A stretch of 64,000 nucleotides of DNA from Clostridia bacterium (GTDB taxonomy: Bacteria; Bacillota; Clostridia; UMGS1840): positions 1-64,000 of the forward strand of contig JAFUIN010000008.1 of assembly GCA_017468465.1 (NCBI GenBank). Reading direction: 5' to 3'. The notes under the pieces were generated by a model. The model ran no database searches and was not told the origin of the DNA. It saw nothing but the letters and a program-made list of their open reading frames with translations. The position numbers and the translations under genes are program-made. This document shows positions 5,282 to 63,905 of this stretch, piece after piece; within the stretch, counting starts at the first letter, position 1, and each line of letters begins with the position of its first letter.

Positions 5282-5395
5282 GCAGGAGCCGTTTTTTGAT
5301 GAAAAAGATGGAATCTCTTTTTTAGGGAAAACAATTTACTTCCTTCAAAATACTGACAAAGTCAAAGGTATATTTTGCCCAAATGAAATATTATA

Positions 5396-5440
5396 AAAAG
5401 GGCTGCGGCAAAATAAGATTCATTTTGCCGCAGCCCCTTT
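5396..5440 (-). terminator. Terminator of the LRR gene, GAGCTGTAGCAAAAT hairpin family
   Basis: Perfect 15-bp stem GGGCTGCGGCAAAAT / ATTTTGCCGCAGCCC (5400-5436), with a T-run on the minus strand, just after the LRR stop codon. It is the GC-richer member of a hairpin family seen again at 31495, 50884 and 63865. Confidence 0.85.
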
Positions 5441-5447
5441 TGGCTAA

Positions 5448-8400
5448 TTATTTCACGATTTCAACCTGATATTTTGTTTGAATGGTTTCAAAATTGCACC
5501 CTTCTTCTTCATCGGTAGCTTGATTATCCGAATCAAACGGATCTTCCCATACCATCACCTTAGCACAAGTATACTCTGTTGTCGGTTCACCAGATTGTGC
5601 CTTCTGTTCTGTGGTGTACTCCTTGGTGGTGGTAAAAGTGATGTCATTTTCTGCAGATGCCGCAAGCTGAACCTCTACCAGCTTATTTCCGTAATACAAT
5701 GCTAAAATCACAGTCTTTCCGTTTTCAACATTAAGCGTTCTCACGGTAAAGGTTTTGCTGTCTTGTGAAACCTGAGTTTTAATAACCGGCACAAAATGTA
5801 CTGTTGCAGCCGTGAAGTAATCATTGTAATTGCCCACTGAAATGTTACTCCACTGATCAGGTTCTCCATAATAATAAATATCTGTCAGCTTGGAATCCAT
5901 AAAAAATGCGTACTGACCAACGGTGGAAACATCCTGTGCAAACGTAATCTTTGCCAAGTTAGAACACTTTGCAAAAGCATGATCGCAAATTGTGGTCACA
6001 GTTTCAGGGAGGGTAATTGTTTCCAGCCCTACACAAGCAGAAAAAGCACGCTCTCCAATGGTTTGCAAACTTTCTCCCCAAATCACTTCGGTCAAATTGG
6101 CAGCCTCCTGGAATGCAGAGTTCCCCAAACCGGTTACACCATCGCCAATAATCACTTTGCGGATGTTCTCAATGTGATCATACCAAGGCATTGTATATGC
6201 AGTATAATCATACATGTCACCAGTTCCCTCCAAAGTCAAAACTCCATCAGAGGTTACTCTCCAGGTAAGATTATCTCCGCAGGAACCGGAGAAGTAATGT
6301 ATAGAAGCATTCCGGATACCATCGTTTTTATCTCCAATTTCCATATTATTCCAATCTGCCTCGGTTCCGTAATAGTATACAGTTTTCAGCTTTGTACAAA
6401 GGTCAAAAGCAGAATCTCCGATAGTGGTTACTGTTTCGGGAAGGGTAAGATTCACAAGGCTAAAGCAGTTATGGAACACATAGGGATTGATTGTGGTAAG
6501 CCCATTACCAATCATTACATCGGTCAAAGCCGTACAAGAGTTAAACGCACGCTCGCCCAACGAGGTAACGCTGTTTGGAATGTTGATTTGAATAAGGTTA
6601 ATACAGTTATAAAACGCAGAAGCACCAATAGTTTCCAATGTTTCTCCCAGAGTAAGTTTGTTCAAGCCTTCGCAGCTTGCAAACGCAAAATCGCCAACAG
6701 AAATGACACTTTCAGGAAGTGCAATTTCTGTAATGCCCTTACAGGAACCAAAAGCACGGTCGCCAATGCTCTCCAGGTCATTTCCGAAAGTAACATCGGT
6801 CACATTGGAACATTCGAAGAATGCCCCAACACCAACAGCAGTAACTCCGTCACAAATCACGACCTTTTGAATGTTGTTTCGCAAACTGTACCAGGGAGCT
6901 TTGCGCAGCTCATAGTCTGCCATAGCACCAGTTCCGCTGATAGTCAGTGTGCCAGCACTATCCAGCTGCCAAATCACCTGTTCTCCACAAGTTCCCTCGT
7001 TCCACGAGCATGAAACAGTAGCACTAAGCAAAGCTTCATTTCCGGCTGCGGCACTTGCAATCTCATTCCATACAGATGGGAAACCATCGTAATATACTTT
7101 AGTTAAAGCATTACAGGAAGCGAACGCATTTTCTTCAATCATAATGACACGATTGGGAACAGTAATTTCTTCTACGGCAGAAGAAGCAAAAGCCCCCTTA
7201 CCGATTGTCATAACCGTTTCGGGAATCACATAAGCTGCCTCCTGTTTTCCGGGCGCATATTGCATCAGAACAGTTTGGTTTTTATCAAATAATACATTTT
7301 CTACAGCACAGTATGCCGAATTTTCTTCTGCTACGATTATCGTTGTCAGACTCACGCAACCAAAAAATGCAGAATCTCCGATTGCAACAACACTTTCAGG
7401 AATGGTAACCTCTTCTAAACTGCCCAGAGCAGAGAAAGCACCATTTCCAATGGAAGAAACGCCGTTTGTAATTACAACCGATTGAATACTGTCAGCATCA
7501 TCTGCCCAAGGTTGAGCTTCCGCGCTGTAATCATACATATCACCGGTGCCGCTGATGGTTAAAATGCCTGCAGCATCCAGATACCAAACCAAATTTTCAC
7601 CACAAACACCTTCTTCACAGGCAAAGTGCATGTTTGCACTCTCTAAAGCTGTGTTTTGGATACCCAAAGAAATTTCATTCCACTGTTCTTCGCTACCCAT
7701 ATAGTAAATATCAGTCAGCGCAGAACAATCACGAAAAGCAGCATCGGAAATAACAGTTACCGTTTCAGGAAGCGTAAGAGTGGTCAAACTGTTACAACCG
7801 TGAAACATAGATACACTGGCAGTAGTGATTCCATCTTCCAACGTTACCTTAGCAAGACCAGTGCATGAAGTAAAAGCACGATCTCCCCAAGAAGTAACAG
7901 ATGCCGGAACCACCAATTCGGTCAATCCTTTACAGTTATAGAAAGCAGAATCTCCAACGGTTTTCAAATTAGCACCAAAGATAATTTCAGTTGCGCCTTC
8001 ACAGCTTGCAAATGCAAAATCTTCTACTAAAGTCACAGTATCTCCCAAATCAATGCTGGCGATTGCTTTACAGGAGGCAAACGCACGAACACCGATTGTT
8101 TTCACACTATTTCCGAGAGAAACTTCAACAAGATTGGGATGATTGTAAAATGCCCAGGTCCCAACATTGGTTACACCGTCTTCGATGACGACCTTTTTCA
8201 CATTGCTTCTCTGGCTATACCATGGCATGGTGCGGGCTTCATAATCATCCATTTTGCCGGTACCGCTGATAGTCAGTGTGCCATCATCATCCAGGCTCCA
8301 GGTCAGGTTGTCTCCACAGGTATTTGCAGTTGCAAAATGGAAAGTCGCACCGGTTAACTCTGTATTGTTGGAACCAATGGCAATACTTGCCCATTTTTGT

Positions 8401-9769
8401 TCGGTTCCTCTGTAATATACATCTTTTAAGGCAGAACAACCACGAAAAACATTTCCTGCAATGGTGGTAACAGCTCCACCAATGGTGACTTTTTCAAGCG
8501 AGGTACAATTACGGAATGCAGAATCTTCAATGGTTGTCACGCCACTTCCTATGGTCACTTCGGTCATGGAAGTACAGGTATTAAACGATTCTTCTCCCAA
8601 AGTCACTACACTGTTGGGAATATCAATATTTTTCAAAGAAATACAATTATAGAATGCTCGCACTTCAATGGTTTTCACATTGTATCCCAAATGAACGCTT
8701 TCCAGCTTTTCATCATTGGCAAATGCTCGGTCCCCAATTAAGGTTACACTATCAGGAATGGTGATTTCAGTTAAGGCTTTACAAGTGGAAAAAGCACGGA
8801 ATTCAATCCTGGTAAGCGTCTCCGGCAAAACCACCTCTGTCAGATTCGGTAACATATAAAACGCCCATGTTCCGGCACTGGTAATGCCTTCTTCAAGGAC
8901 TACCTTTTTGATATCATTGCGCAAATCAATCCAAGGTGCACTGTAAGCAGTGTAGTTCCCCATAGGTCCCTCACCGCTGATAGTCAGAGTTCCGTCAGAA
9001 TCCAGGCTCCACGTAGCATTGTTTCCGCAAGTATTATCCGGAGCTACCTGCACGGTTGCCTTGGTAAGCGCATCATTTTGCGAATTGATGGTAATTTTAC
9101 TCCACTGCAACTGAGTCCCTAAATAAGTAACATTTTTTAATGCAGTGCAGTTATGAAATGCGGATGTCCCTACTTCAGTTACACCACTGCCGATGGTCAG
9201 ATTGGAAAGTTTAGCGCAGCTGTGAAATGCAGACGCACCAATCACCTTAAGCCCGGCACCAATTACCAAAGTGGTAAGGGAGGAACAAGAAATAAACGCG
9301 TTGTCTCCCAAAGTAACCACGCTATCAGGGATACTAACACTGGTCAGTCCCTTACAGTTATAAAACGCATAAGGACTAATTGTTTGCAGTTTATTTCCCA
9401 AAGTCAGCTTGGTAAGTCCTTCGTCATTGGCAAAAGCATATTCACCAATAGAAAGCACACTGTTGGGAACAGTAACACTGGTAATTTTCTTACAGGTAGA
9501 AAAAGCACGGGTGCCGATTGCAGTAATTCCATCACCTATAACAACTTTTATGATATTGTCTCTTTGACTATACCAGGGAATGCTGCTTGCTGTATAGTCA
9601 GGAATCGCCCCGGTACCACTGATACTCAGGGTTCCTTCGGAATCCAAATTCCAGCTGACAGTGCTGTGCAAGACCCGCTTGCTACGGTTGCTGCTGATAC
9701 ACTCATTGCACCAAACAACGTAATGCAAAATACAATGGTCATCAGCAATGCTGTGATTTTTTGTTTCAT
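5448..9769 (-). CDS. Secreted BspA-like leucine-rich-repeat protein, frameshifted after signal peptide
   Basis: About 1,430 residues of LRR_5 (BspA/TpLRR) repeats in six tandem modules. Each opens with a CG-x-x-LTW-x-LD-DGTLTISGTG hairpin, then PWY-(S/D)-x-R, then 6-9 repeats of the type IG-x-x-AF-x-x-C-x-x-L-x-x-I-x-I, and closes with an (Y/V)YYxG-x-x-x-xW block. The C-terminus is a roughly 110-residue beta-rich domain. Such proteins are secreted and bind host or cell-surface ligands. The upstream ATG at 9769 (site AGGGGAG) encodes a textbook signal peptide (MKQKITALLMTIVFCITLFG then AMSVSA), but that frame stops after 47 codons. The body frame is reached only by adding one base near 9665-9675. 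The alternative open start at 9791 encodes no secretion signal. Confidence 0.85.
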
Positions 9770-20780: not shown

Positions 20781-22067
20781 ATGAAATACCTGATTGAGGG
20801 CGGAAAAAAACTTTCCGGCACAGTGAGGATTTCCGGCTCTAAAAATGCTGTATTGCCCATTCTTGCAGCAACCATCATTACCGGAAAAAAAACTGTGCTA
20901 AAAAACTGCCCCGATATTTCCGATGTGCATTGCACTGTTGATATTCTTAAATATTTAGGGTATGATGTTACGATAGACGGCTCTACCATAACCGTAGATT
21001 CCTCGAAAAAAAGCACTCCCGAAGTACCAAGGGAGTTAATGTGTCGCCTGCGTTCTTCCATTATATTTCTGGGTGCCTTCATCAACCGTTTTGGCTATGC
21101 AAAGCTGTTTCCGCCGGGCGGCTGTGAATTGGGCAAACGCCCCATTGACATTCATCTTTCCATGCTGTCACAAATGGGGGTTGACATTATAGAAGAAGAC
21201 TGTCGCATTGTCTGCACCACCCCGAAGCTCTCAGGCGGAGAATATCGTTTTTCCTTCCCCAGTGTAGGTGCTACCGAAAACGTAATGATTGCTGCCCTCA
21301 AGGCAGACGGTCCCGTGGTTTTGAAAAACCCGGCAAAAGAACCCGAAATTGTAGATCTGCAAAATTTTCTGTGTACTGCCGGCGCAAAAATCACCGGTGC
21401 AGGAACCGACACCATTACGGTTTACCCCACCAATTCGTTTCACGATTGTGAATATACCGTTTCATCAGACCGAATCGAAGCTGCAACCTATATGGCAATC
21501 GCCTCAGCGACCCGCAGCATGTTAACCCTCACCAATGCACCCTGTAAAGACCTTTTTAGAATGGCTGAAGCCATGGAGCAAATGGGTGTGTATGTGATGG
21601 AAAGCAATTCGCACACACTCACCGTCATTCCGCCAAAAAGACTAAAACCCGTCAGCATGATTACCACAATGCCCCATCCGGGATTTCCAACCGATGCCCA
21701 GGCACTGTTAATGGCAACCCTATTGAAAGCAGAAGGCTGCAGCATGATTGTAGAGAATATCTTTGAAAACCGCTATAATCATGTAGAAGAACTGAACAAA
21801 ATGGGTGCAAATGTTTTGGTAGACGGAAACACTGCTAAAATTTTTGGCGTGGAAACACTATTCGGCGCACAGGTATATGCCAGAGACCTTCGTGCAGGCG
21901 CAGCATTAGTGATTGCCGCACTTTGTGCAGAAGGCACCACGCTGATTCACAATGTGCACCACATTGAACGGGGCTATGAAAAGATGATTGAAAAGCTGAA
22001 TCTTATCGGTGCAAATGCAAAAGTCATCAACAGCAAGGAACAAACAGACGAACCATACAGTCTATAA
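20781..22067 (+). CDS. murA: UDP-GlcNAc 1-carboxyvinyltransferase, dcw copy
   Basis: The 428-residue enzyme catalyses the first committed step of peptidoglycan synthesis (PEP to UDP-GlcNAc); the active-site cysteine is the fosfomycin target. The loop PPGGCELGKRPID has Cys115, so it should be fosfomycin-sensitive in principle. The N-terminal KNAVLPI carries the conserved Lys22-Asn23 pair. Its start at 20781 has AGAAAGGTG upstream. A second paralogue lies at 47782, as is usual in low-GC Gram-positives (MurA/MurZ pairs). Confidence 0.96.
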   Translation: MKYLIEGGKKLSGTVRISGSKNAVLPILAATIITGKKTVLKNCPDISDVHCTVDILKYLGYDVTIDGSTITVDSSKKSTPEVPRELMCRLRSSIIFLGAFINRFGYAKLFPPGGCELGKRPIDIHLSMLSQMGVDIIEEDCRIVCTTPKLSGGEYRFSFPSVGATENVMIAALKADGPVVLKNPAKEPEIVDLQNFLCTAGAKITGAGTDTITVYPTNSFHDCEYTVSSDRIEAATYMAIASATRSMLTLTNAPCKDLFRMAEAMEQMGVYVMESNSHTLTVIPPKRLKPVSMITTMPHPGFPTDAQALLMATLLKAEGCSMIVENIFENRYNHVEELNKMGANVLVDGNTAKIFGVETLFGAQVYARDLRAGAALVIAALCAEGTTLIHNVHHIERGYEKMIEKLNLIGANAKVINSKEQTDEPYSL

Positions 22068-31474: not shown

Positions 31475-31494
31475 TCTCCGTTCCTCATTCAAAG

Positions 31495-31537
31495 GAGCTA
31501 TAGCAAAATAAATTCCATTTTTGCTGTAGCTCTTTTT
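31495..31537 (+). terminator. Terminator after azlD, GAGCTGTAGCAAAAT hairpin family
   Basis: GAGCTATAGCAAAAT pairs with ATTTTTGCTGTAGCTC (31517-31532, one bulge), followed by TTTTTT. Confidence 0.88.
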
Positions 31538-31614: not shown

Positions 31615-31688
31615 GGTATTAAATGGGGTATTTTACCCATAACGGAGAAAACTGCGCTTCCCAACAATGCGGAAAGGAAACGGACACA

Positions 31689-34600
31689 ATGATGAATAAA
31701 AATAGGTCTCCCCAATTTTTTGATAAGGAAAAACAAGATAAACTGTTTGACATTTTCTATGCACAATTTTCAGAACAGTTAAAAGTCGACAACTGTTTTT
31801 TGCTGACCACTGTAGGTCAGAAGCTGACAGGTGCTTTGCAGGAAAACGGCTTTCCCAACGCCAAGCTCCCTGTTTTTCGTGCCTGTCCCAAGCATTTTAT
31901 CTGTGGCTATGACTCTACCAAGCAAACTGCAACAGGCCCCGCCGCTGCAGTTGCCGTAAAGGGCTATCCCACCCCGGAACGCTTTGTTCCCTTAAAAGCA
32001 GCGTATACTGCCCCCGCCACTCTTTCCGAAAAACTGAAAGCCCATTTTCCCTATAATGAAGTGCCCCTGCGCGATGTGGAAGAATACTTAAAACAGCTTG
32101 GCATCGTTTGTGATGATGTTCAAGCCTATCTTTCAGAAAAAGCTCCTGACATGAAGCAAAAGGCGCTTTCCATGGGAGAAGGACATCCCTATGAACCATT
32201 TTTGATTGTAAATCCTCCCAGGGAAATCCCAGCCGAAATCCGCAATAGAGTAATCTGGGTTGCAAAAACAAAATTCGGAGATAAGCACATTGTAGAAAAT
32301 GCAGACATCGGAACAGCGTTTCGCAAGGTAGGTGTGAATTTCCGCAATTATAATTATATGCACCTGACCTCCTTCATCCGTTATTTTAAGGATATTTTTT
32401 CCATTATATCCATGAAAACAGGTGAAAAAAACAACTCCCGCATTTCCGTGCGCATTCTGCATCAGAATTTAAGCCGGATGCCACTTCCCGAAATAGACCC
32501 CTCTGTATTTGAAGCAGAACAAACAAAGGTACCGAAAAAACAAACTGCCAAAAACGTACTTCCGGAAAATGACTTCTTTCGAAACAGCATTTTTACCGCC
32601 TACGAAACCGGTGCTTATGAAAGCCTTCGCGAAAAAATATATATTTCCTACGGAATGCAGCACCCCGAAGACTGCGAGGTGTGGACTTTATATATCAACG
32701 CATTCTTAAAATTCTTCCCCTACCCCGCTCTTTCAGAATACACTTTGAACCCGTGGGAAAAAGCTGCAATGATTCCTGACACAGAGCAACTCAAAGAATA
32801 TTGTCAGGATTTGGAGCTGTTAAAAAGTTGGGGCTTTACTGACAACGACATTGGTCACTTGGATGATATGTTAAGACGGACTGCGCAACCCGCCACCACC
32901 ATCAGCGGATTGGCAACCCGTTTGACTCACACCTTGCCAAAGGCGTCCCTTCTGCCTGAAATTCTAAATTATATGAGTATCACCCAGGGAGAAAAAGTTG
33001 TGCGGGAAACCGCCATGAGAAACCTGTCTTTCGGTTATCTTGAAAAGGGAGAAACCGAAAACCTTGTAGACTTATGGGAAAATTTTCGTCAGGTTCTCTC
33101 TCCTAAAATTGTCAACCGTGTATTTTCCGCCATGTTTCAGGAAGGAAGCACTGCGCTCATTTTGAAATTGAAACACACGCTTTCGCAGGAAACGTGTGCT
33201 CACTCCCAGGTTGTCATGTATCTCACCATGGCAAGCTTCCTGGAAGGTGGCCACACAGCAAGCGACTTCAATCAGCTGATTGCCGAGCTTTCTGTCTATT
33301 CCTTCGACGAACAAATTGCCTATTTGAGTGATTTATACACCCTGCTTTTCACAGCAGAAAAATATGGTGCAGTTTGCATGCTGTCCGGAGAACTTCTGTT
33401 GCAGCTTCATAAAAGGGTTGCCCAAAAAGTGCTGCACGGACTGTGGATGCTTATGGCACCTCACAAAGAACAGCTTTTATTATATTTAGAAAAAGAATGC
33501 ACGCCCGATACTGTTTCTCTTTGTGCATTTTGGGAATACTTTTCGCAAAAGCAAGGCACAGATTTGCTTTGGGAAGAAAAGCGGAAACTAATCATAAGCG
33601 AATATATCAGCCGGATTGAGGCGGCTCCCCAATTAGAAGAAAAGCTGACACTCACAGAAACTGCATTGAATATGTTCCAAACCGAAAAGCAGTTCATTGA
33701 CATTCATATCCGCCTTTTAGAAGAAAAATATCCGGCAAACAGCAGCGAAGAACCCTACAAAGAAATCTTGTCGGAGCTGCACGAAAAACGAAACACCCTT
33801 GCTGTTATCAGTCTTGCAGAAAGCGGAAAGCTCGACCGCTACAAAGAAGAATACTGGTGTCAGAAAATATTGATTTCTGCCTACCGTCAGCAGTCCTTGC
33901 TTCTGACGGCTATTGTGCTGGGCGCAGACACCCTCCGGAATATGAAAACCGAGCAAGCAAAATATTATGTCTATGCGAATAAGCTTTCCGAAGACTTATA
34001 TGATTATTTCTATATTGAAGGAAACAACCGGCAACCGGAAGAGCTTCCTCCCTTTGCTTTGCTGCGCCACGTGAAAAATTTAATCAAAAATCCCGATACC
34101 AACGACTACCGTCACGCTATGGTCATTGTTAAGCTGCTCCTTTGGGCTGAAAAGCCGCTGTGCGCCGCCTTCATCTACTCCCTTTGTATGGCAAGCAGCA
34201 CCATGCCTTCTGACCTGAAGGAAATTCTGTCGGGGGTGGAAGAAGAATTAAAGCAAGCACTGCCCTATCCGGAAAGACTTTCTCTTTCCCGATTGGAGGA
34301 TGTTCTGAATACCCTGCTCACAACACTTCCCATCGAGGATATCAACCTGTGCTTATCCTACGGCAGAACCATTCTGGAGCTGGACCGTTTTGAAAGGGAT
34401 ATCAACTTCTACAAAGCAGAGCATAAATTCTGGAGAGAAGATTATTCTCTCCCCAAAGCTCTCATCGCTGCCAATAACTACGGAGAATCCTGGCGTATAT
34501 ACGGCAATGAATATCAGCATATGTCCAAGCTCAGCTATGTGGCAGATTTTATGTGTATCTATCAATTCCAGAATTTTGGTCCGTCGTTGAGCCGCTGTGT

Positions 34601-37600
34601 CTATGCCATGAACCAGAGCAAGCCGGAAGGCTTGCCGGACAACTTGATGGAATTAAACTATGCTCTATTATGCAAAAACTACGCAATTCCATCCTATTGG
34701 AATGCCTTTTGTGCTTATGCGAGCAGAAAAAAAGCATTTGAAAGCTGTAACGAGGAACTGTTAAGCCGCTACCTTTCCTATACCGACCAACATCCTCAAT
34801 ACAAACAGCTGACAACCGAGCTTCTGATACAATCCAAAAATCCCGACATTTTCTTCGGGCGTTATTTGCATGAAGACGGTGCTGTGAATGAATCCGCAAT
34901 AGAAAAAACGGAACTTTCCAATTTCATTCATTTGATTTTTTGCTATATTAAATATCTCCGAGAGGAAAACAAGCTCCTCTCTCCCTATACCGACTCCATC
35001 GCCATCCTCCTGAGCTATGTGAAGCAAGGGGCATCTGCCGCATCTGAAAAAGCTGTTGTTTTATGGTTGGAAGAATACGTTGAACTGCATTTGAAAGAGG
35101 ATGCCGATCCGGATTATTTTCTGGTTTCCGACCTGCTGTTGCGGGCTTATCCCAGAACGGAACATCTGATTTTCACCAACCGTGATGATAAGCTGCCCTA
35201 TGAAAAATACTATAACCTGCTGGACCGCTGGTTAGAAATCAACCCAACTCATGCCAACGCTCTGTCAATTTATTATTTTCACATTGACCAGCCAACCTTC
35301 CAGGATGAAGCAACACGTCACATTCAGTTTCGTTATTTGTCCAATGCACTCACCAAAATGTACGAAGCACAAACACAGTCAGAAAAAAACCGTGCTTCGC
35401 TTCTTAGAACCTGCAAAAGTATTCTGACTATGTATTTCTTAAACAATTTTGGAGCAGAAACCAAAATTCCCTATCCGCCGGCTCACTTTGTGGAAATGTT
35501 TGAAGATAGTTTAACTACCCTTCCGGAAAAGGCGCAAATCAGCCAGTTAGCTGCCGCTTTGACAAATTTATGGGAAGCGAACTTACCCCATTATTTAAGA
35601 GATTATTTGATTCTTTGTGGCATGACAAACTATTGGGACGTTTTTCTGTTAGACTTAATGAACACCACAACAAACCTCGACGTATTTTCTTGCGATGCGG
35701 TGCAACAATATATCGGTATCAGCGCATATTCTGCACTCAACCGTCGTTTATTCCAAATGCTCATTTATGCAAAAATTGCCCTTTGGAACGAGCACGCCTC
35801 TGCCGGTGAACAAATTTTTATCAACAATGATGACTACCCCACCTTCCGAAAAATGGCACAAAACGGTCAGATTGACACCCCCTATTTTGCAAAACTGTCT
35901 ACAATCTCCACCCTGGCCGGAAAAAATATGCAGTCGTTATTTGAAACCATCGCGCAAATAAGCAATGATGCACAAAAAAGCTGTTTGACACAAGCCTATA
36001 CCGTTATTCAGGGAAAAGTGTGCCATACCACGCTTTCTCTCCTGATGCAAACAGAAAATCCACACGATGCTGTGATGCAAATGTTCATTCTGTTGCAATA
36101 TCCCAACACGTTGACAGATGCGCTGGAGCATTTTATCAAAGAACACGCACACACCCGTGAAGAAGCTTTGGCTACCTTCTTGAATCATCCCCTGTTGGAA
36201 GAGACCATCGGCACTTTTTACAAGGCATATCTGATCACCTTGTTCCATCACACATTGAGCCGTTTTGATGAAGCGGCTGCTGCGTTACCCGCCGAAGAAA
36301 GCTGTCCGGAAGAGTGTGTGGTGAAATACAACAACTTAAAAAATGCAGTGCTCAACCGAACACTCCTGTCCGACACTGCAAATTTCACTGCGGTTTCCAA
36401 TCTTTTGAAGCTGAGCTTTATGGAATCTGCTGCTCCCTCTGCTTTGGAAAATTTCAACGATCTTCTCATCAGCTTTGATTCGGGAAATCTTGCCAACAAC
36501 GAAAAAAGCCAGATTTTACTGGCACGAAAAATCTATCATTATATCCTGTCGGGAGAAACTCATCCGGAATACGAGCGTTTTGTAATGCGATGGGGCTTCC
36601 TGGAGCTTTCCGTCTGCCAAAACTATGAACAAAGCCTTCGCATTTTGCTGGAGCTGTTAAATCATATTCACCTGATAACAGGTCACGCAGATTTTGAAAA
36701 CGAATTTCTGGAAGCCTTTTCGGAAATTTTCCTTTCCTTAAGCGAGCCGGTTATTTTATCCAAATTTGACAGTATCGGTCAAATCGGAACCCTGCTGGGA
36801 GACACCTACAAAAATTCGTTGATTACCAATATCACAAAGCTGCTGATCCCCATTTCTCAAACATATCAGGCACCCGATAAAGACTTCCATAGTGAGCTTT
36901 CCAAAGCCATTGAGGAAGCTATGCTCCTTCGTGCCGCACACCCCGGAAATCAGCTGGCTGACAAATGCTACGACATTCTTCTGGACTGCAAAACACAGCT
37001 GGAAAGCCGCGGCAGACTGCAGCTTGCCGTCTTAAACGAAGAAAACATCATCAGCGGGTCACTGTTTTACACCATTACAAACACCGGTTCTCATGCCGTG
37101 GAAGAATTGCTGATTACTGTCTCCGTTTTGAAAAACGGTGAAAAACTGCTGCGCTTCTTCAAAGAAGTGCCCCAGCTGAATAAAGGGCAAACCTATACGG
37201 AAGAAATCGAAATGGAACAATTTTTTGAGCAATTTCCGGAAGGCGAAGCAGTGGACATTCATCTTGATGTGGTTTACAACTGCATGGAGCACTCTGCCCT
37301 AACCTTACATATGGAGCAACAGCTTCTTTCCAAGCAAGAGGACTATGAGTATATCCACAGGGTTTACCCCTATGCTCCCATTGACCGCACAGAGCTGTTT
37401 CACCTTTACAATACGGTGCAAAACAGAAACTTTGTGATGCTGTACGGCACCAACGGAACCGGTAAAACAAGCTTGCTCACAATGCTGAAAAATCAACTGA
37501 CCAAGGAAAACACCACCACGTCAAAGACCTTTACGGTGATGCTTACCAACAACACCGAAAACCGTTCAGCTGCCGAAATCATCCATGATATTATGACATC

Positions 37601-39866
37601 GTTTTGCTACTGTGAAAACAGCAAAACCAATACAGAGTCGGTGTATAATCAATTACGTTCTTCCCTGGAATATGCGGTCAGCCAGGATGAAATCAACGAA
37701 AAAGCAAAGGAATTCATTCTTGCAAACTATCGGGAATATGTTTCCTGCAGTATGGATGAAAAAAGTTTCACATTTACCAATTTCATCAATCAGCTGAAAA
37801 ACCTGAACAATAAATTCAAAGAATTTAAGCTTCACACAGGTCTGGACTTCAAATTCTGTCTGCTGTGGGATGCTTTTGAAACTGTTATTTCTTCCAATCG
37901 GGTATCTCCCGAAGAAATGAATTTTAAGACCCTGATTGACACCTTCAAAAGCGAAGAAGCGCAAATTCGCATTGTGTTTACCGGCTCCAATAAGCTTTTG
38001 GAGGTGGCAGAAGTAAAAAATGATGCTGACCCCTGGAATATTATGTTCCGTGATATCAGCGGTGAAACCAGCATCAAGGTCGGAAATCTGCATAAAAAAG
38101 ACTTCTGTCGGATTATAACCGACAAAAATCTGCTAAACGGCGGCGAAATTCATTTTTCCGATGCTGCGCTGGACTATCTGTATCAATACACAAACGGCCA
38201 TATCAGCTATTCCAAAATGTTTGTAAATCAGGCCTTGGAAACTCTGCACGAGCGACGGGTCAACCGTCGCTGCATCTATCCGTCGGATATTAAAATTTTC
38301 GATTTTCATAAGAAAAAAGCCGAAAACGAACAGCGTGTTGCAAAAAATCTGACCGCACAGATTTTCCAGGACATCCAGAACGATTATGATGTCATCAATG
38401 TGGGAAAAACTCTGGCAGAAATCGCATCGGATGGAAACGCTCTCGTTTCTTCTGCCGAACTCAAAAAAACAGTGCTGTCCTCCTTCCACAATATTGGTGA
38501 AAAGCAGTATAACCGCGCCATTGAAATTCTCAAAGCACGTGACTTTATCACCGAGGAACAAGACAAATATCAAAAAGCAAATTATCGGTTCAACAGCGTA
38601 TTATACCTGAATCATTTTCTGTCCAGAGAAGCTGTTTTGCAGCAACCCGACGAAGAAATTCCGCTGGAAGAACTGATTGAAAAAATTCAGTCCAGAAATT
38701 ACAACTGGAAAGAAATTGATGAAATCAATAAGCTAAAAGGCGAAAAAAATGAAGTCAACGTGCATATTGAACGTCAGTATAATGACCACGCTACAGACCA
38801 GTCGGTCGGCACACAAACAAACATCCAAATCAATGCACAGTCCATCGCAACCACCTTCCACTCCATTTTGACTGCCGACACAAAAGACCTGCCGGAGCTG
38901 TTTTCTTCCTTGCCCATGCTTTCCGCATTTTTACCCGATGACAAACATGAGCAGTTAGCCTTGCTTTGCAACCGATTGGAAGAACAAACCTCTCGCAGTG
39001 TTGACCCCTTTGATGTGACAGAAACAAAACAGCTGCAACAGGAGCAGGCCCAGGTGGAAGCACAAATTGCAACCATTGCAGAGCCTGCAATCGCCGAAAT
39101 GCACAGCACTTACAAAAATGCTGTAGTGATGGCAGAAGATGTAGGGCACTTCTCTGTTTGGGAAACCTTAGGCATGAAAAACCAAGGGGAATACCAGTTG
39201 CTTTGCTCCAAACTGGATCCGGAATTTGTGGCAGATTTGTATTTTGCTGCCAAATTGGATTATGTGTTTAAGAATATGGAAGACGAAACCATCACCCAAA
39301 AAAACACTGACTTCAGCCCGGTCAGCATTATGTATTGCAAATTGATAGAAAAAATGCTCAAACACTATCACACGGACATCTACGCAGATAAACTGCAGGA
39401 ATCCTCTACCCAAAATACTATCAAAAATGCGCAAACCCAACAGGAACAGCTGGTTTTGTTCGGAGATTTGGCAAACGGCAGTGCCTTAACCGAATATGAA
39501 CAAAAGATGATTCGTCAACGCATTATGATCGGAGCATTTTTGTGGCCCATTAACCCCCGCTTTGACAACACCAAAAATCGCATTGAGCTTGCAGACGGGA
39601 TTTCAGATGTGGCAGAAAAATGGAATCTTCACGGCCATGCGCTGAACGATATCAGTCAAACCAGAAACGACTCCGCACACGGCTCTTCAGAAAAGCGTAT
39701 CACTTCACAACGGCTGAAAAAACTGAAATGTTGGCTCTTTGAACGAAAAGAAATTGCAAACTTGGTTGAGCTTTCGCAAATTCATAAAGAAGGTTATGAA
39801 AGCTATCTCAAGCACCGAAAAGAAGAAGAGGACCTGTTGAAAGTCTGGAACGGTGACCATTCTTAA
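31689..39866 (+). CDS. Giant OST-HTH / helical-repeat / STAND NTPase / HEPN protein, putative conflict system
   Basis: A 2,725-residue soluble protein I cannot match to a named family. In order: two LOTUS/OST-HTH-like segments (about 12-76, FLLTTVGQKL; about 175-240, NADIGTAFRKVGVNFRNYNY); about 1,500 residues of HEAT/TPR-like helices (245-1770); a beta-sandwich (about 1775-1880); a STAND-like NTPase with Walker A GTNGTGKT (1920-1927), Walker B FCLLWD (D2061) and sensor IVFTGSN (2095-2101); a winged helix (about 2220-2315); a polar NVHIERQYND segment (about 2355-2390); and a C-terminal HEPN-like domain with R2659-NDSA-H2664 (R-x4-H RNase motif). Known STAND conflict proteins pair an NTPase with a repeat sensor and a toxic effector. 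By analogy I infer an RNA-cleaving immune or dormancy switch. The start follows AAAGGAAACGG. Confidence 0.85.
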   Translation: MMNKNRSPQFFDKEKQDKLFDIFYAQFSEQLKVDNCFLLTTVGQKLTGALQENGFPNAKLPVFRACPKHFICGYDSTKQTATGPAAAVAVKGYPTPERFVPLKAAYTAPATLSEKLKAHFPYNEVPLRDVEEYLKQLGIVCDDVQAYLSEKAPDMKQKALSMGEGHPYEPFLIVNPPREIPAEIRNRVIWVAKTKFGDKHIVENADIGTAFRKVGVNFRNYNYMHLTSFIRYFKDIFSIISMKTGEKNNSRISVRILHQNLSRMPLPEIDPSVFEAEQTKVPKKQTAKNVLPENDFFRNSIFTAYETGAYESLREKIYISYGMQHPEDCEVWTLYINAFLKFFPYPALSEYTLNPWEKAAMIPDTEQLKEYCQDLELLKSWGFTDNDIGHLDDMLRRTAQPATTISGLATRLTHTLPKASLLPEILNYMSITQGEKVVRETAMRNLSFGYLEKGETENLVDLWENFRQVLSPKIVNRVFSAMFQEGSTALILKLKHTLSQETCAHSQVVMYLTMASFLEGGHTASDFNQLIAELSVYSFDEQIAYLSDLYTLLFTAEKYGAVCMLSGELLLQLHKRVAQKVLHGLWMLMAPHKEQLLLYLEKECTPDTVSLCAFWEYFSQKQGTDLLWEEKRKLIISEYISRIEAAPQLEEKLTLTETALNMFQTEKQFIDIHIRLLEEKYPANSSEEPYKEILSELHEKRNTLAVISLAESGKLDRYKEEYWCQKILISAYRQQSLLLTAIVLGADTLRNMKTEQAKYYVYANKLSEDLYDYFYIEGNNRQPEELPPFALLRHVKNLIKNPDTNDYRHAMVIVKLLLWAEKPLCAAFIYSLCMASSTMPSDLKEILSGVEEELKQALPYPERLSLSRLEDVLNTLLTTLPIEDINLCLSYGRTILELDRFERDINFYKAEHKFWREDYSLPKALIAANNYGESWRIYGNEYQHMSKLSYVADFMCIYQFQNFGPSLSRCVYAMNQSKPEGLPDNLMELNYALLCKNYAIPSYWNAFCAYASRKKAFESCNEELLSRYLSYTDQHPQYKQLTTELLIQSKNPDIFFGRYLHEDGAVNESAIEKTELSNFIHLIFCYIKYLREENKLLSPYTDSIAILLSYVKQGASAASEKAVVLWLEEYVELHLKEDADPDYFLVSDLLLRAYPRTEHLIFTNRDDKLPYEKYYNLLDRWLEINPTHANALSIYYFHIDQPTFQDEATRHIQFRYLSNALTKMYEAQTQSEKNRASLLRTCKSILTMYFLNNFGAETKIPYPPAHFVEMFEDSLTTLPEKAQISQLAAALTNLWEANLPHYLRDYLILCGMTNYWDVFLLDLMNTTTNLDVFSCDAVQQYIGISAYSALNRRLFQMLIYAKIALWNEHASAGEQIFINNDDYPTFRKMAQNGQIDTPYFAKLSTISTLAGKNMQSLFETIAQISNDAQKSCLTQAYTVIQGKVCHTTLSLLMQTENPHDAVMQMFILLQYPNTLTDALEHFIKEHAHTREEALATFLNHPLLEETIGTFYKAYLITLFHHTLSRFDEAAAALPAEESCPEECVVKYNNLKNAVLNRTLLSDTANFTAVSNLLKLSFMESAAPSALENFNDLLISFDSGNLANNEKSQILLARKIYHYILSGETHPEYERFVMRWGFLELSVCQNYEQSLRILLELLNHIHLITGHADFENEFLEAFSEIFLSLSEPVILSKFDSIGQIGTLLGDTYKNSLITNITKLLIPISQTYQAPDKDFHSELSKAIEEAMLLRAAHPGNQLADKCYDILLDCKTQLESRGRLQLAVLNEENIISGSLFYTITNTGSHAVEELLITVSVLKNGEKLLRFFKEVPQLNKGQTYTEEIEMEQFFEQFPEGEAVDIHLDVVYNCMEHSALTLHMEQQLLSKQEDYEYIHRVYPYAPIDRTELFHLYNTVQNRNFVMLYGTNGTGKTSLLTMLKNQLTKENTTTSKTFTVMLTNNTENRSAAEIIHDIMTSFCYCENSKTNTESVYNQLRSSLEYAVSQDEINEKAKEFILANYREYVSCSMDEKSFTFTNFINQLKNLNNKFKEFKLHTGLDFKFCLLWDAFETVISSNRVSPEEMNFKTLIDTFKSEEAQIRIVFTGSNKLLEVAEVKNDADPWNIMFRDISGETSIKVGNLHKKDFCRIITDKNLLNGGEIHFSDAALDYLYQYTNGHISYSKMFVNQALETLHERRVNRRCIYPSDIKIFDFHKKKAENEQRVAKNLTAQIFQDIQNDYDVINVGKTLAEIASDGNALVSSAELKKTVLSSFHNIGEKQYNRAIEILKARDFITEEQDKYQKANYRFNSVLYLNHFLSREAVLQQPDEEIPLEELIEKIQSRNYNWKEIDEINKLKGEKNEVNVHIERQYNDHATDQSVGTQTNIQINAQSIATTFHSILTADTKDLPELFSSLPMLSAFLPDDKHEQLALLCNRLEEQTSRSVDPFDVTETKQLQQEQAQVEAQIATIAEPAIAEMHSTYKNAVVMAEDVGHFSVWETLGMKNQGEYQLLCSKLDPEFVADLYFAAKLDYVFKNMEDETITQKNTDFSPVSIMYCKLIEKMLKHYHTDIYADKLQESSTQNTIKNAQTQQEQLVLFGDLANGSALTEYEQKMIRQRIMIGAFLWPINPRFDNTKNRIELADGISDVAEKWNLHGHALNDISQTRNDSAHGSSEKRITSQRLKKLKCWLFERKEIANLVELSQIHKEGYESYLKHRKEEEDLLKVWNGDHS

Positions 39867-39929: not shown

Positions 39930-40015
39930 TTTTCAAGACCGGAAAAATTGCTTTCGAAAGAAGAAACCGAGCCAAAGCAGCGCTTTGGTAGCACCCGAAG
40001 CCGTACCGATACCTT
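39930..40015 (+). repeat. Structured intergenic element, partial copy A
   Basis: Contains GACCGGAAAAATTGCTT, then CCGAGCCAAAGC-AGC-GCTTTGG (stem 2), then ACCCGAAG. Its 5' flank and core match copy B 100 bp downstream, but the closing 3' arm is missing or eroded. Confidence 0.6.
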
Positions 40016-40022
40016 ACGCCAC

Positions 40023-40160
40023 ACTTTCAAAATCGGCAAAATTGCTTCAGAATTCAAAAACAGAGCCAAATTTTGTTTGGCAACCCCGAAGGCGTATATG
40101 TTATACGTCGAGGGTCTGTTTTTGGATAGCATAAGCGGTCTGAACAATTTTTACATCTTG
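40023..40160 (+). repeat. Structured intergenic element, full copy B
   Basis: Nested stems in order: AAAATTGCTTCAGA with TCTGAACAATTTT (outer, one bulge); CAAAAACAGA with TCTGTTTTTG (40056-40065 / 40115-40124); GCCAAA-TTTTG-TTTGGC (stem 2); conserved ACCCCGAAGGC; CGTATA-TGT-TATACG (stem 3); TCGAG. A conserved GCGGTCTG lies on the 3' side. It sits between the giant gene and the convergent dehydrogenase gene. Confidence 0.7.
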
Positions 40161-43881: not shown

Positions 43882-43918
43882 AAAGGGAGGTAAAAAACTA
43901 CGTTTTTTACCTCCCTTT
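43882..43918 (+). terminator. Terminator with perfect 17-bp stem
   Basis: AAAGGGAGGTAAAAAAC-TAC-GTTTTTTACCTCCCTTT, ending the nif3-side transcript. Confidence 0.85.
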
Positions 43919-43923
43919 GCAAT

Positions 43924-44068
43924 GGGGATAAGGAAAAATGCTCCAAAGCAAACAAACTGAGCCAAAGCATAAGCTTTGGAAACCCGAAGGCCTGCGATGC
44001 ACGTCGAGAAGCGAAGTTTGTTTGTTGCAAGAAATTTTTTCTTGCGGTCTGGACGCTTTTTCACATCC
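43924..44068 (+). repeat. Structured intergenic element, full copy C
   Basis: Nested stems: GGAAAAATGCTCC with GGACGCTTTTTC (outer); CAAACAAACT with AGTTTGTTTG (inner); GCCAAAGC-ATAA-GCTTTGG (stem 2). Conserved core: AACCCGAAGGC, then ACGTCGAG and AAGCGAAGT. The 3' side holds an extra hairpin (GCAAGAAA / TTTCTTGC) and the conserved GCGGTCTG. It lies between convergent genes. Confidence 0.72.
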
Positions 44069-44074
44069 CCTTTA

Positions 44075-47781: not shown

Positions 47782-49041
47782 ATGGAAAAATATGTAATCA
47801 AAGGCGGCACTCCCCTTTCCGGCGAGGTAACCATAAGCGGTGCAAAAAACGCTGTGGTTGCCATGATTCCCGCTGCAATTCTGGCAGACGGTCCCTGCAT
47901 TTTGGAAAACGTACCGGATATTTCCGATGTACGTATTATGATTGATATCTTAAAACAGATGGACGTTGAAGTATACTATAAAGCACCCGGGATTTTATAC
48001 ATCAATGCCGAGCATATCAACGGCACAAAGGTCCCCTATCAGCTGGCGACCAAAATGAGAGCCTCCTATTATTTTTTAGGTGCGCTTTTAGGCAAATTCC
48101 GTCATGCAGAAGTGGCACTTCCCGGCGGATGCCATTTAGGTCCCCGTCCCATCGACCAGCACCAGAAAGGCTTTGAAGCGCTTGGTGTTCAAACAGAAGT
48201 CAAAGGCGGTGCAGTCATTGCCGATGCAAAATTCCTGGTTGGTGCTCCTGTGTTTTTTGACCAGGTTTCTGTTGGTGCAACCATCAACGTGATGCTTTGC
48301 GCCTGTATGGCAGACGGAATCACCACCATCGAAAACGTAGCAAAAGAACCGCATATCGTTGACGTGGCAAACTTTTTGAACTCCATGGGCGCCAAAATCA
48401 AAGGTGCCGGAACAGACACCATTAAAATCACCGGTGTATCAAAGCTGAAAGGCTCTGTTTATTCTGTCATTCCAGACCAGATTGAAGCCGGAACCTATAT
48501 GGCAATGGCTGCAGCAACCAAGGGCGACGTGCTGGTAAAAAACGTCATCCCCAGACATATGGAATGTATGACCGCCAAGCTGTTGGAAATGGGTGTCGGT
48601 GTTGAAGAAGGCGACGACCAGATTCGAGTGTATTACAAAAAGCGACCCAAGCCAACCTTGGTAAAAACCCTGCCCTACCCCGGTTTCCCCACAGATATGC
48701 AGCCGCTTATTACCACTTTGCTCACTGTGGCAGATGGTAACAGTACCGTAACTGAAACCATTTGGGATTCTCGGTTCAAATATACCGAAGAGCTGCAGAA
48801 AATGGGTGCCAATATCACCGTAAACGGCAAAACTGCTATGGTAACCGGTGTGGACGAGCTTTATCCTGCACCTCTGCAGGCAACCGACCTCCGTGCCGGT
48901 GCAGCTATGGTGATTGCCGGCTTAATGGCAAACGGAACCACCGAAATCACCAATATTCATTATGTAGAACGCGGATATGAAAACCTGGTGGAAAAAATCA
49001 CTGCAATAGGCGGTGATATCCGCAAAGAAGGAACCAATTAA
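47782..49041 (+). CDS. murA2: UDP-GlcNAc 1-carboxyvinyltransferase, second copy
   Basis: The 419-residue enolpyruvyl transferase has KNAVVAMIPA at its N-terminus and active-site Cys117 in LPGGCHLGPRPID. It is as complete as the dcw copy, so both should be active; duplicates of this kind are known in low-GC Gram-positives and give redundancy at the first step of wall synthesis. The ribosome site is GAAAGGAAT. It heads a transcript with walJ and rlmH. Confidence 0.95.
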   Translation: MEKYVIKGGTPLSGEVTISGAKNAVVAMIPAAILADGPCILENVPDISDVRIMIDILKQMDVEVYYKAPGILYINAEHINGTKVPYQLATKMRASYYFLGALLGKFRHAEVALPGGCHLGPRPIDQHQKGFEALGVQTEVKGGAVIADAKFLVGAPVFFDQVSVGATINVMLCACMADGITTIENVAKEPHIVDVANFLNSMGAKIKGAGTDTIKITGVSKLKGSVYSVIPDQIEAGTYMAMAAATKGDVLVKNVIPRHMECMTAKLLEMGVGVEEGDDQIRVYYKKRPKPTLVKTLPYPGFPTDMQPLITTLLTVADGNSTVTETIWDSRFKYTEELQKMGANITVNGKTAMVTGVDELYPAPLQATDLRAGAAMVIAGLMANGTTEITNIHYVERGYENLVEKITAIGGDIRKEGTN

Positions 49042-54099: not shown

Positions 54100-54338
54100 C
54101 CATGCCTATTTTGAAAAACTTGACGCTACATCAGCAGAAAATGGTTTCTTCGCTACATGCAATGCTACGACGAGCGGTGAGATTCACAGATTTCAACTCA
54201 TTTTCTTTTTCGTACATTTTGCGCAGAAAAAAAGATGCAGAACAGAGAAAGCGAACCTGCAAAGGGACTCCCGAAGTCGTACCGAGTGTACGACGAGCGG
54301 TGAGATTCACGAATTTCAACTCATTTTTCAAGCAATAA
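54100..54338 (+). repeat. Fragmented copy E of the structured intergenic element, with internal direct repeat
   Basis: TACGACGAGCGGTGAGATTC begins a 39-bp direct repeat at 54166-54204 and 54289-54327 (2 differences, 123 bp apart). Before the second copy, GATGCAGAA...CCCGAAG-TCGTAC-N5-GTACGA-CGAG reproduces the core (CCCGAAG, stem 3, CGAG) of copies B-D. Located between convergent sigF and rplL. Confidence 0.6.
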
Positions 54339-63613: not shown

Positions 63614-63629
63614 GAGCTGTAGCAAAATG
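63614..63629 (+). repeat. Half copy of the GAGCTGTAGCAAAAT hairpin
   Basis: GAGCTGTAGCAAAATG directly after the AraC stop, without the complementary arm. It is a 16-bp direct repeat of 63865-63880, so the structured element D lies between the two. Confidence 0.75.
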
Positions 63630-63684
63630 TGCAGACCGCACAAATGAGCAACCAGTAGATAGAACTGGTAATTTGAATTTTGAC

Positions 63685-63855
63685 ACGGAAAAATGAATAG
63701 TAATTCATTTAACAAAGAATAGAAACAGAATACTATGAAAAAACTTCGCCCCTCAACGTAGCATTGCATGCAGCATTAGTACGCCTTCGGGTAACCAAAA
63801 GCAAGGCTTGCCCTTGCTTTTGCTCAGTTTTTTCATTCTGCATCATTTTTCGTCC
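63685..63855 (-). repeat. Structured intergenic element, full copy D
   Basis: Read on the minus strand: GAAAAATGA pairs with TCATTTTTC, CAGAAT with ATTCTG, GAAAAAACT with AGTTTTTTC; then GAGC, an AAAAGCAAGG / CCTTGCTTTT hairpin, ACCCGAAGGC, a GTA-closed hairpin and ACGTTGAGGGGCGAAGT. Same architecture as copies B and C with different stem sequences. Confidence 0.7.
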
Positions 63856-63864
63856 AGCCAAAAG

Positions 63865-63905
63865 GAGCTGTAGCAAAATGAATTTCATTTTGCTACAGCT
63901 CTTTT
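63865..63905 (-). terminator. Terminator, GAGCTGTAGCAAAAT hairpin family
   Basis: GAGCTGTAGCAAAATGAA / TTCATTTTGCTACAGCTC, perfect 18-bp stem, just after the stop codon of the partial gene at 63904. T-tracts occur on both sides. Confidence 0.85.

Follow-up and report, generated by a model that had tools for sequence, protein, structure and literature searches.

Copy C of the repeat family described here occupies positions 43924 to 44070 on the plus strand of the window, by which we mean the whole stretch of 64,000 nucleotides that was analyzed. As a sequence-only reading had stated, it lies between convergent genes and adjoins a terminator-like hairpin (43882 to 43918, minus strand); the neighboring gene (44740 to 44075, minus strand) codes for a VTT domain protein. 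The limits of the 147-nt element are based on sequence, fold, and full-length alignment with covariation. The start at 43924 had been placed correctly, but the end, put at 44068, was two bases short: GGGGAT/ATCCCC of the outer stem P0 (GGGGATAAGGAAAAATGC.. / ..GCTTTTTCACATCCCC) closes 43924/44070. From its position right after a complete terminator, copy C had been argued not to serve as one itself. The hairpin is indeed there, but its T-tail is clear on the minus strand only, and therefore the transcript of the VTT gene would traverse copy C in antisense before terminating, which makes the argument uncertain. As to an own promoter at copy C, promoter-like matches were seen, but none was convincing.

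The core of copy C (43951 to 44022; all parts on the plus strand) was delimited by a covariance model match (E 1.3e-15) and pair counts. Helix P1 (43951-43958/44015-44022) is followed by a tandem G.A step and encloses helix P2 (43962-43968/43973-43979), the motif ACCCGAA (43982-43988), helix P3 (43989-43995/43999-44005, with one C.C mismatch), and GAGAAGCGA (44006-44014). The short P4 region (44027 to 44051) consists of the hairpin GCAAGAAA/TTTCTTGC (44027-44034/44038-44045) and the conserved GCGGTCTG (44044-44051). The bases originally described for the copy are present in the sequence. The predicted fold has an energy of −46.9 kcal/mol, compared to −35.4 kcal/mol in dinucleotide shuffles (z = −3.08), and is better than 200 of 200 shuffles. 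Conserved words of copy C are commoner in the genome than expected by chance, because ACGTCGAGAAGCGAAGT has 2 sites within the window at ≤3 mismatches (0.05 expected) and the core pattern has 3 matches genome-wide, compared to 0 for a reversed-pattern control. The hairpin on the 3′ side had been taken for an extra, inserted one. This view has to be revised: P1′ and GGTCT are 21 nt apart in copy C but mostly 105 to 115 nt apart in other copies, and therefore copy C is a short-P4 member whose 3′ hairpin is the normal P4 arm in reduced form. Copy C had also been called the best-preserved copy; it does have the top model score within the window, but genome-wide seven other copies score higher, and the mismatch in P3 speaks against the label as well.

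Full elements (~110 to 250 nt) have a long outer stem P0 that leads to a junction with the arms P1 and P4. The P1 arm contains the tandem G.A step, P2 as an optional side helix, and the motif ACCCGAA-P3-GAGNGGYGA; the P4 arm is usually ~110 nt long. In an alignment of 107 distinct copies, the 18 pairs of the model form in 94.6% of the cells, compared to 80.2% in shuffles, and double changes occur at 16 of the 18 pairs, a signal that is lost when the partners are slid; because the fitting of this alignment relied on the model and the P3 pattern had served to pick many of the copies, the P3 counts are biased. Outside the model, the pair beside the conserved GA/GA step is A-T in 46, G-C in 40, and C-G in 3 of 99 copies; the 86 of 99 with A-T or G-C compare to 45 expected, and 0 of 10,000 shuffles, which ignore kinship, reached this value. 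Furthermore, RNAalifold recovered P0, P1, P2, P3, and P4 in 21 full-length copies that had been excised manually and aligned independently of the model, with double changes at 25 of 43 pairs. In the cells of the model pairs, G.U is far more frequent than A.C (134 versus 20, or 73 versus 20 without one G.U-rich P3 pair), and therefore the plus strand, as given, is the folding strand. In sum, the family is real: its many copies are scattered behind genes and share a multi-branch fold that covaries and is specific to one strand. The family fold and its covariation bear out the view that a layout with conserved loops exceeds a REP or a terminator in complexity.

The window contains further copies. 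Copy B (40038 to 40155, plus strand; model match 40055-40124), a short-P4 member with an orthologous copy in genome G003, is located in a convergent gap at the downstream end of an L-lactate dehydrogenase (LDH) gene, in tandem with the degraded copy A (39944 to 40020, plus strand), which has lost the 3′ side of P3 and P1′. Copy E (54228 to 54332, plus strand, limits approximate; model match 54245-54308) belongs to a divergent subfamily and has a sigma-factor gene on one side and the L7/L12 gene on the other, with a further degraded unit nearby (~54150-54205). Copy D (63614 to 63859, minus strand, ends read by eye; model match 63738-63833) is a long-P4 member directly after a terminator-like hairpin. 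This hairpin is one of three near-identical terminator-like palindromes in the window (5395-5440, 31490-31535, and 63860-63905; AAAAGGxGCTGxxGCAAAATG..CATTTTGCxxCAGCTCCTTTT); their arms resemble long-P4 outer arms, which may make them relatives reduced to the stem, or else a favored neighbor of the elements. Elsewhere in the window, positions 31623 to 39866 form a single open frame of 2747 aa with one AAA ATPase domain and no other Pfam family, and a 3.5-kb block (5972 to 9518), in which numerous diverged direct repeats keep a register of multiples of 3, is probably a gene for a repeat-rich surface protein. Two paralogous stretches, 20902 to 22017 and 47906 to 48838, are separated by 27 kb, oriented alike, and 70 to 81% identical in blocks; they are possibly two MurA-type genes.

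A DNA search retrieves close relatives only, and therefore we trained a covariance model (R1, 65 positions) on eight copies from the genome under study; in the model alignment, the long P3 loop of copy D had been manually exchanged for a short one. The model found 30 copies at E < 0.003 in the 1.51-Mb genome, including B, C, D, and E of the window, and 21 to 47 copies in each of the four congeners. Across the class, 18 of 99 relatives had matches; 81 of 99 had none at E ≤ 0.01, and therefore the model is specific. Among the matches listed from a pattern scan of named genomes, most were in MAGs of ruminant-gut Clostridia, and others in two Bifidobacterium species, B. leontopitheci and B. ramosum, and in a MAG of the Helicobacteraceae; one contig of a viral collection carries the element. 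In B. leontopitheci LMG 31471, 3 copies adjoin an apparent nusG gene. In the Helicobacteraceae genome, 21 matches reached E ≤ 0.01, and 7 of 30 relatives of it were positive, with 2 to 10 matches each at E ≤ 0.001. In those other phyla, the core GAACCCGAA-GGCGTAC..GTACGYC-GAGNGGTGA is surrounded by a P1 helix quite different in sequence. Pattern matches in Streptomyces (L207 and L233) were rejected, as their flanks look coding and the GGYGA part is missing, and a match in Acidobacteria is doubtful, its genome having no model match. An Acidobacteria MAG (L158, ~5600-6060, and L181) has a longer repeat with the ends GCCCGGATTATTCGTGGGGCATC and GATGCCTCATGAATAGT.CGGGCTA that encloses a core look-alike.

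According to simple ORF-based gene calls, the 100 non-redundant copies comprise 50 with convergent, 49 with codirectional, and 1 with divergent flanking genes; the remaining gaps at the same loci, obtained by subtraction, comprise 10 convergent, 20 antisense, 20 sense, and 31 divergent ones. The replication-strand bias of the copies is weak (38 versus 61) and in part follows gene orientation. Terminator-like sites are overrepresented next to copies on either strand: they were present upstream of 29/93 and 39/93 copies on the two strands and downstream of 23/93 and 29/93, compared to 45/465 random, mostly coding stretches. As convergent gaps hold half of the copies, and most copies have a 5′ A-tract and a 3′ T-tract, the element might be read as nothing more than an intrinsic terminator that works in both directions and has a decorated loop. 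We consider this very improbable: termination needs neither the invariant internal motifs nor the covarying helices P1 to P4, copy L135 has A- and T-tracts exchanged between the P0 arms with pairing kept, and separate terminator hairpins often adjoin the copies.

The main rival to the reading that we prefer below is a functional RNA element, located in mRNA 3′ ends or made as a small RNA, whose fold would bind a protein or processing enzyme via the tandem-GA and CGAA/GAGN core and would terminate or stabilize transcripts in convergent gaps. It is consistent with a covarying, strand-specific fold that has invariant unpaired motifs, with the near confinement of copies to 3′ gaps, and with the LDH- and L7/L12-gap copies kept across several congeners. 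Still, it appears rather unlikely, since codirectional copies are more often antisense to their flanking genes than sense with respect to the folding strand (33 versus 16), copies are numerous, patchily distributed, and in part the product of recent bursts, copy C is missing in congeners, and its promoter matches are unconvincing.

The copies are many and dispersed and have no coding capacity, as is typical of non-autonomous mobile repeats. Full-length copies at unrelated loci are 94.5 to 97.5% identical, genome G060 has many identical core copies, several of them at contig ends, and tandem arrays occur in G054 (period near 240 nt) and in the L7/L12 gap of G003. As to the LDH gap, G000 and G003 share one subfamily there, whereas G001, G002, and G004 have a different one. 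The LDH-gap elements of G001 and G002 are identical in 126 of 126 nt, compared to 90% identity for LDH; either recent homogenization or strong constraint would explain this, and together with the invariant unpaired bases it could reflect selection for a host function. The sequence-only reading had held that absence of copy C from the corresponding gaps of close strains, with a clean target-site duplication, would argue for a mobile DNA repeat. Indeed, the VTT-gene gap is without the element in four congeners, which are different species, but no clean target duplication is readable, and in the best-matching congener gap a neighboring 179-aa gene is missing too. Because of the copy number, the near-identical copies at unrelated loci, the tandem arrays, the absence from the VTT gap, the different subfamilies in the same LDH gap, the cross-phylum patchiness, the single divergent placement among 100, the covariation, and the G.U excess, we favor, at a probability of roughly 0.6, a non-autonomous mobile structured repeat that is recognized in trans via its folded strand. 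Counting against this reading, neither a clean empty site with a target duplication nor an enzyme was found.

Across 121 loci from named genomes and the viral collection, no mobile-element gene or other neighbor was found to recur close to copies, and neither the neighbors nor the families tested (IS200-like/Y1, RAYT, and reverse transcriptase) yielded an autonomous parent or transposase. A Y1 transposase had no match in G003, G006, and G054 nor in the Campylobacterota carriers G110, G112, and G113, and a RAYT gene is absent from the carriers G000, G004, G006, G017, and G054. IS200-like elements and RAYT were therefore rejected as movers: their presence does not track the element, and each is missing from copy-rich genomes. 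In two genomes, a RAYT gene is located just upstream of an element, behind the gene's own terminator, which is probably ordinary gene-end placement. Reverse transcriptase was rejected too, being missing from 8 of 10 carriers, including copy-rich ones, and present in 2 of 10, and no group II intron or other Rfam intron matched the element. Loci of congeners (L326 1501-1977, L304 1501-1998, and L243 ~1200-1330) feature RAYT-type transposase genes and GTAGGGG..CCCCTAC hairpins; the two seem to belong together and look like a REP system of these Clostridia that is distinct from the present element.

As a kind, the element resembles small repeats such as bcr1 of the Bacillus cereus group and ERIC/IRU (RU-1) of enterobacteria, which are intergenic, ~100 to 250 bp long, foldable, present in tens of copies (PMC2267715, PMC2229807), and likewise presumed to be non-autonomous and mobile. 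What sets it apart, judged by the descriptions of those families, and appears unusual, is the multi-branch fold with invariant unpaired motifs and a core found in several phyla. With REP/BIME, which are moved by RAYT transposases, it shares the multi-copy folded single strand, 3′ gaps, and tandem clusters, but it is far larger and branched, lacks the REP hallmark of a short hairpin headed by a GTAG-type tetranucleotide, and is abundant in G000 and G054 without RAYT. Hairpins of the IS200/IS605 type and HEARO/omega RNA are also structured, non-coding, linked to mobility, and able to stand alone; however, the Y1 transposase is missing in the copy-rich G003 and G054, HEARO of Rfam did not match, and no IscB/TnpB-like neighbor recurs. 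Rfam candidates such as Clostridiales-1 (PMC2864571) are structured as well and occur in gut Clostridia, but Rfam 15 gave no gathering-score match over the window and none of relevance at a permissive threshold (E ≤ 10) around copies A to C. Stem-loop families of C. perfringens and C. tetani are listed in PMC2267715, and the literature describes analogous repeats; no account of the present family was found in the literature searched. No described family was matched to that of copy C by Rfam 15 or by published descriptions.

An elaborate multi-branch fold, with invariant unpaired core bases common to three phyla in different helices, would also suit a ribozyme, or the RNA component of a ribonucleoprotein machine, by whose activity the element spreads or maintains itself. 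Such a catalytic or scaffold role seems improbable: the element matched neither ribozyme nor guide-RNA families of Rfam, self-cleaving classes included (window and copies A to C), and a partner gene was not found nearby.

According to our model of a mobile repeat recognized in trans, a candidate enzyme would recognize the folded single strand, either RNA or transiently single-stranded DNA, as it copies or moves the element. Insertions would survive mainly where the promoter stays joined to its gene, that is, in convergent and other 3′ gaps, and tandem arrays may grow through repeated insertion or unequal recombination.

In sum, we describe an uncatalogued class of folded repeats, with 20 to 50 copies per genome, that is common to gut Clostridia, Campylobacterota, and Bifidobacterium and not in Rfam. 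The copies at contig ends in G060 suggest that the element breaks the assemblies of such genomes. It is unlikely that a novel structured RNA class, acting as a catalyst or as the scaffold of an RNA-protein machine, is itself what spreads or maintains these repeats across phyla; if true, this RNA would act through its core with a tandem GA and a three-way junction, which resembles no family in Rfam. The strand-specific fold with its invariant unpaired bases makes it a testable question which enzyme or RNA-binding protein reads the core, and whether it does so on RNA or on single-stranded DNA.
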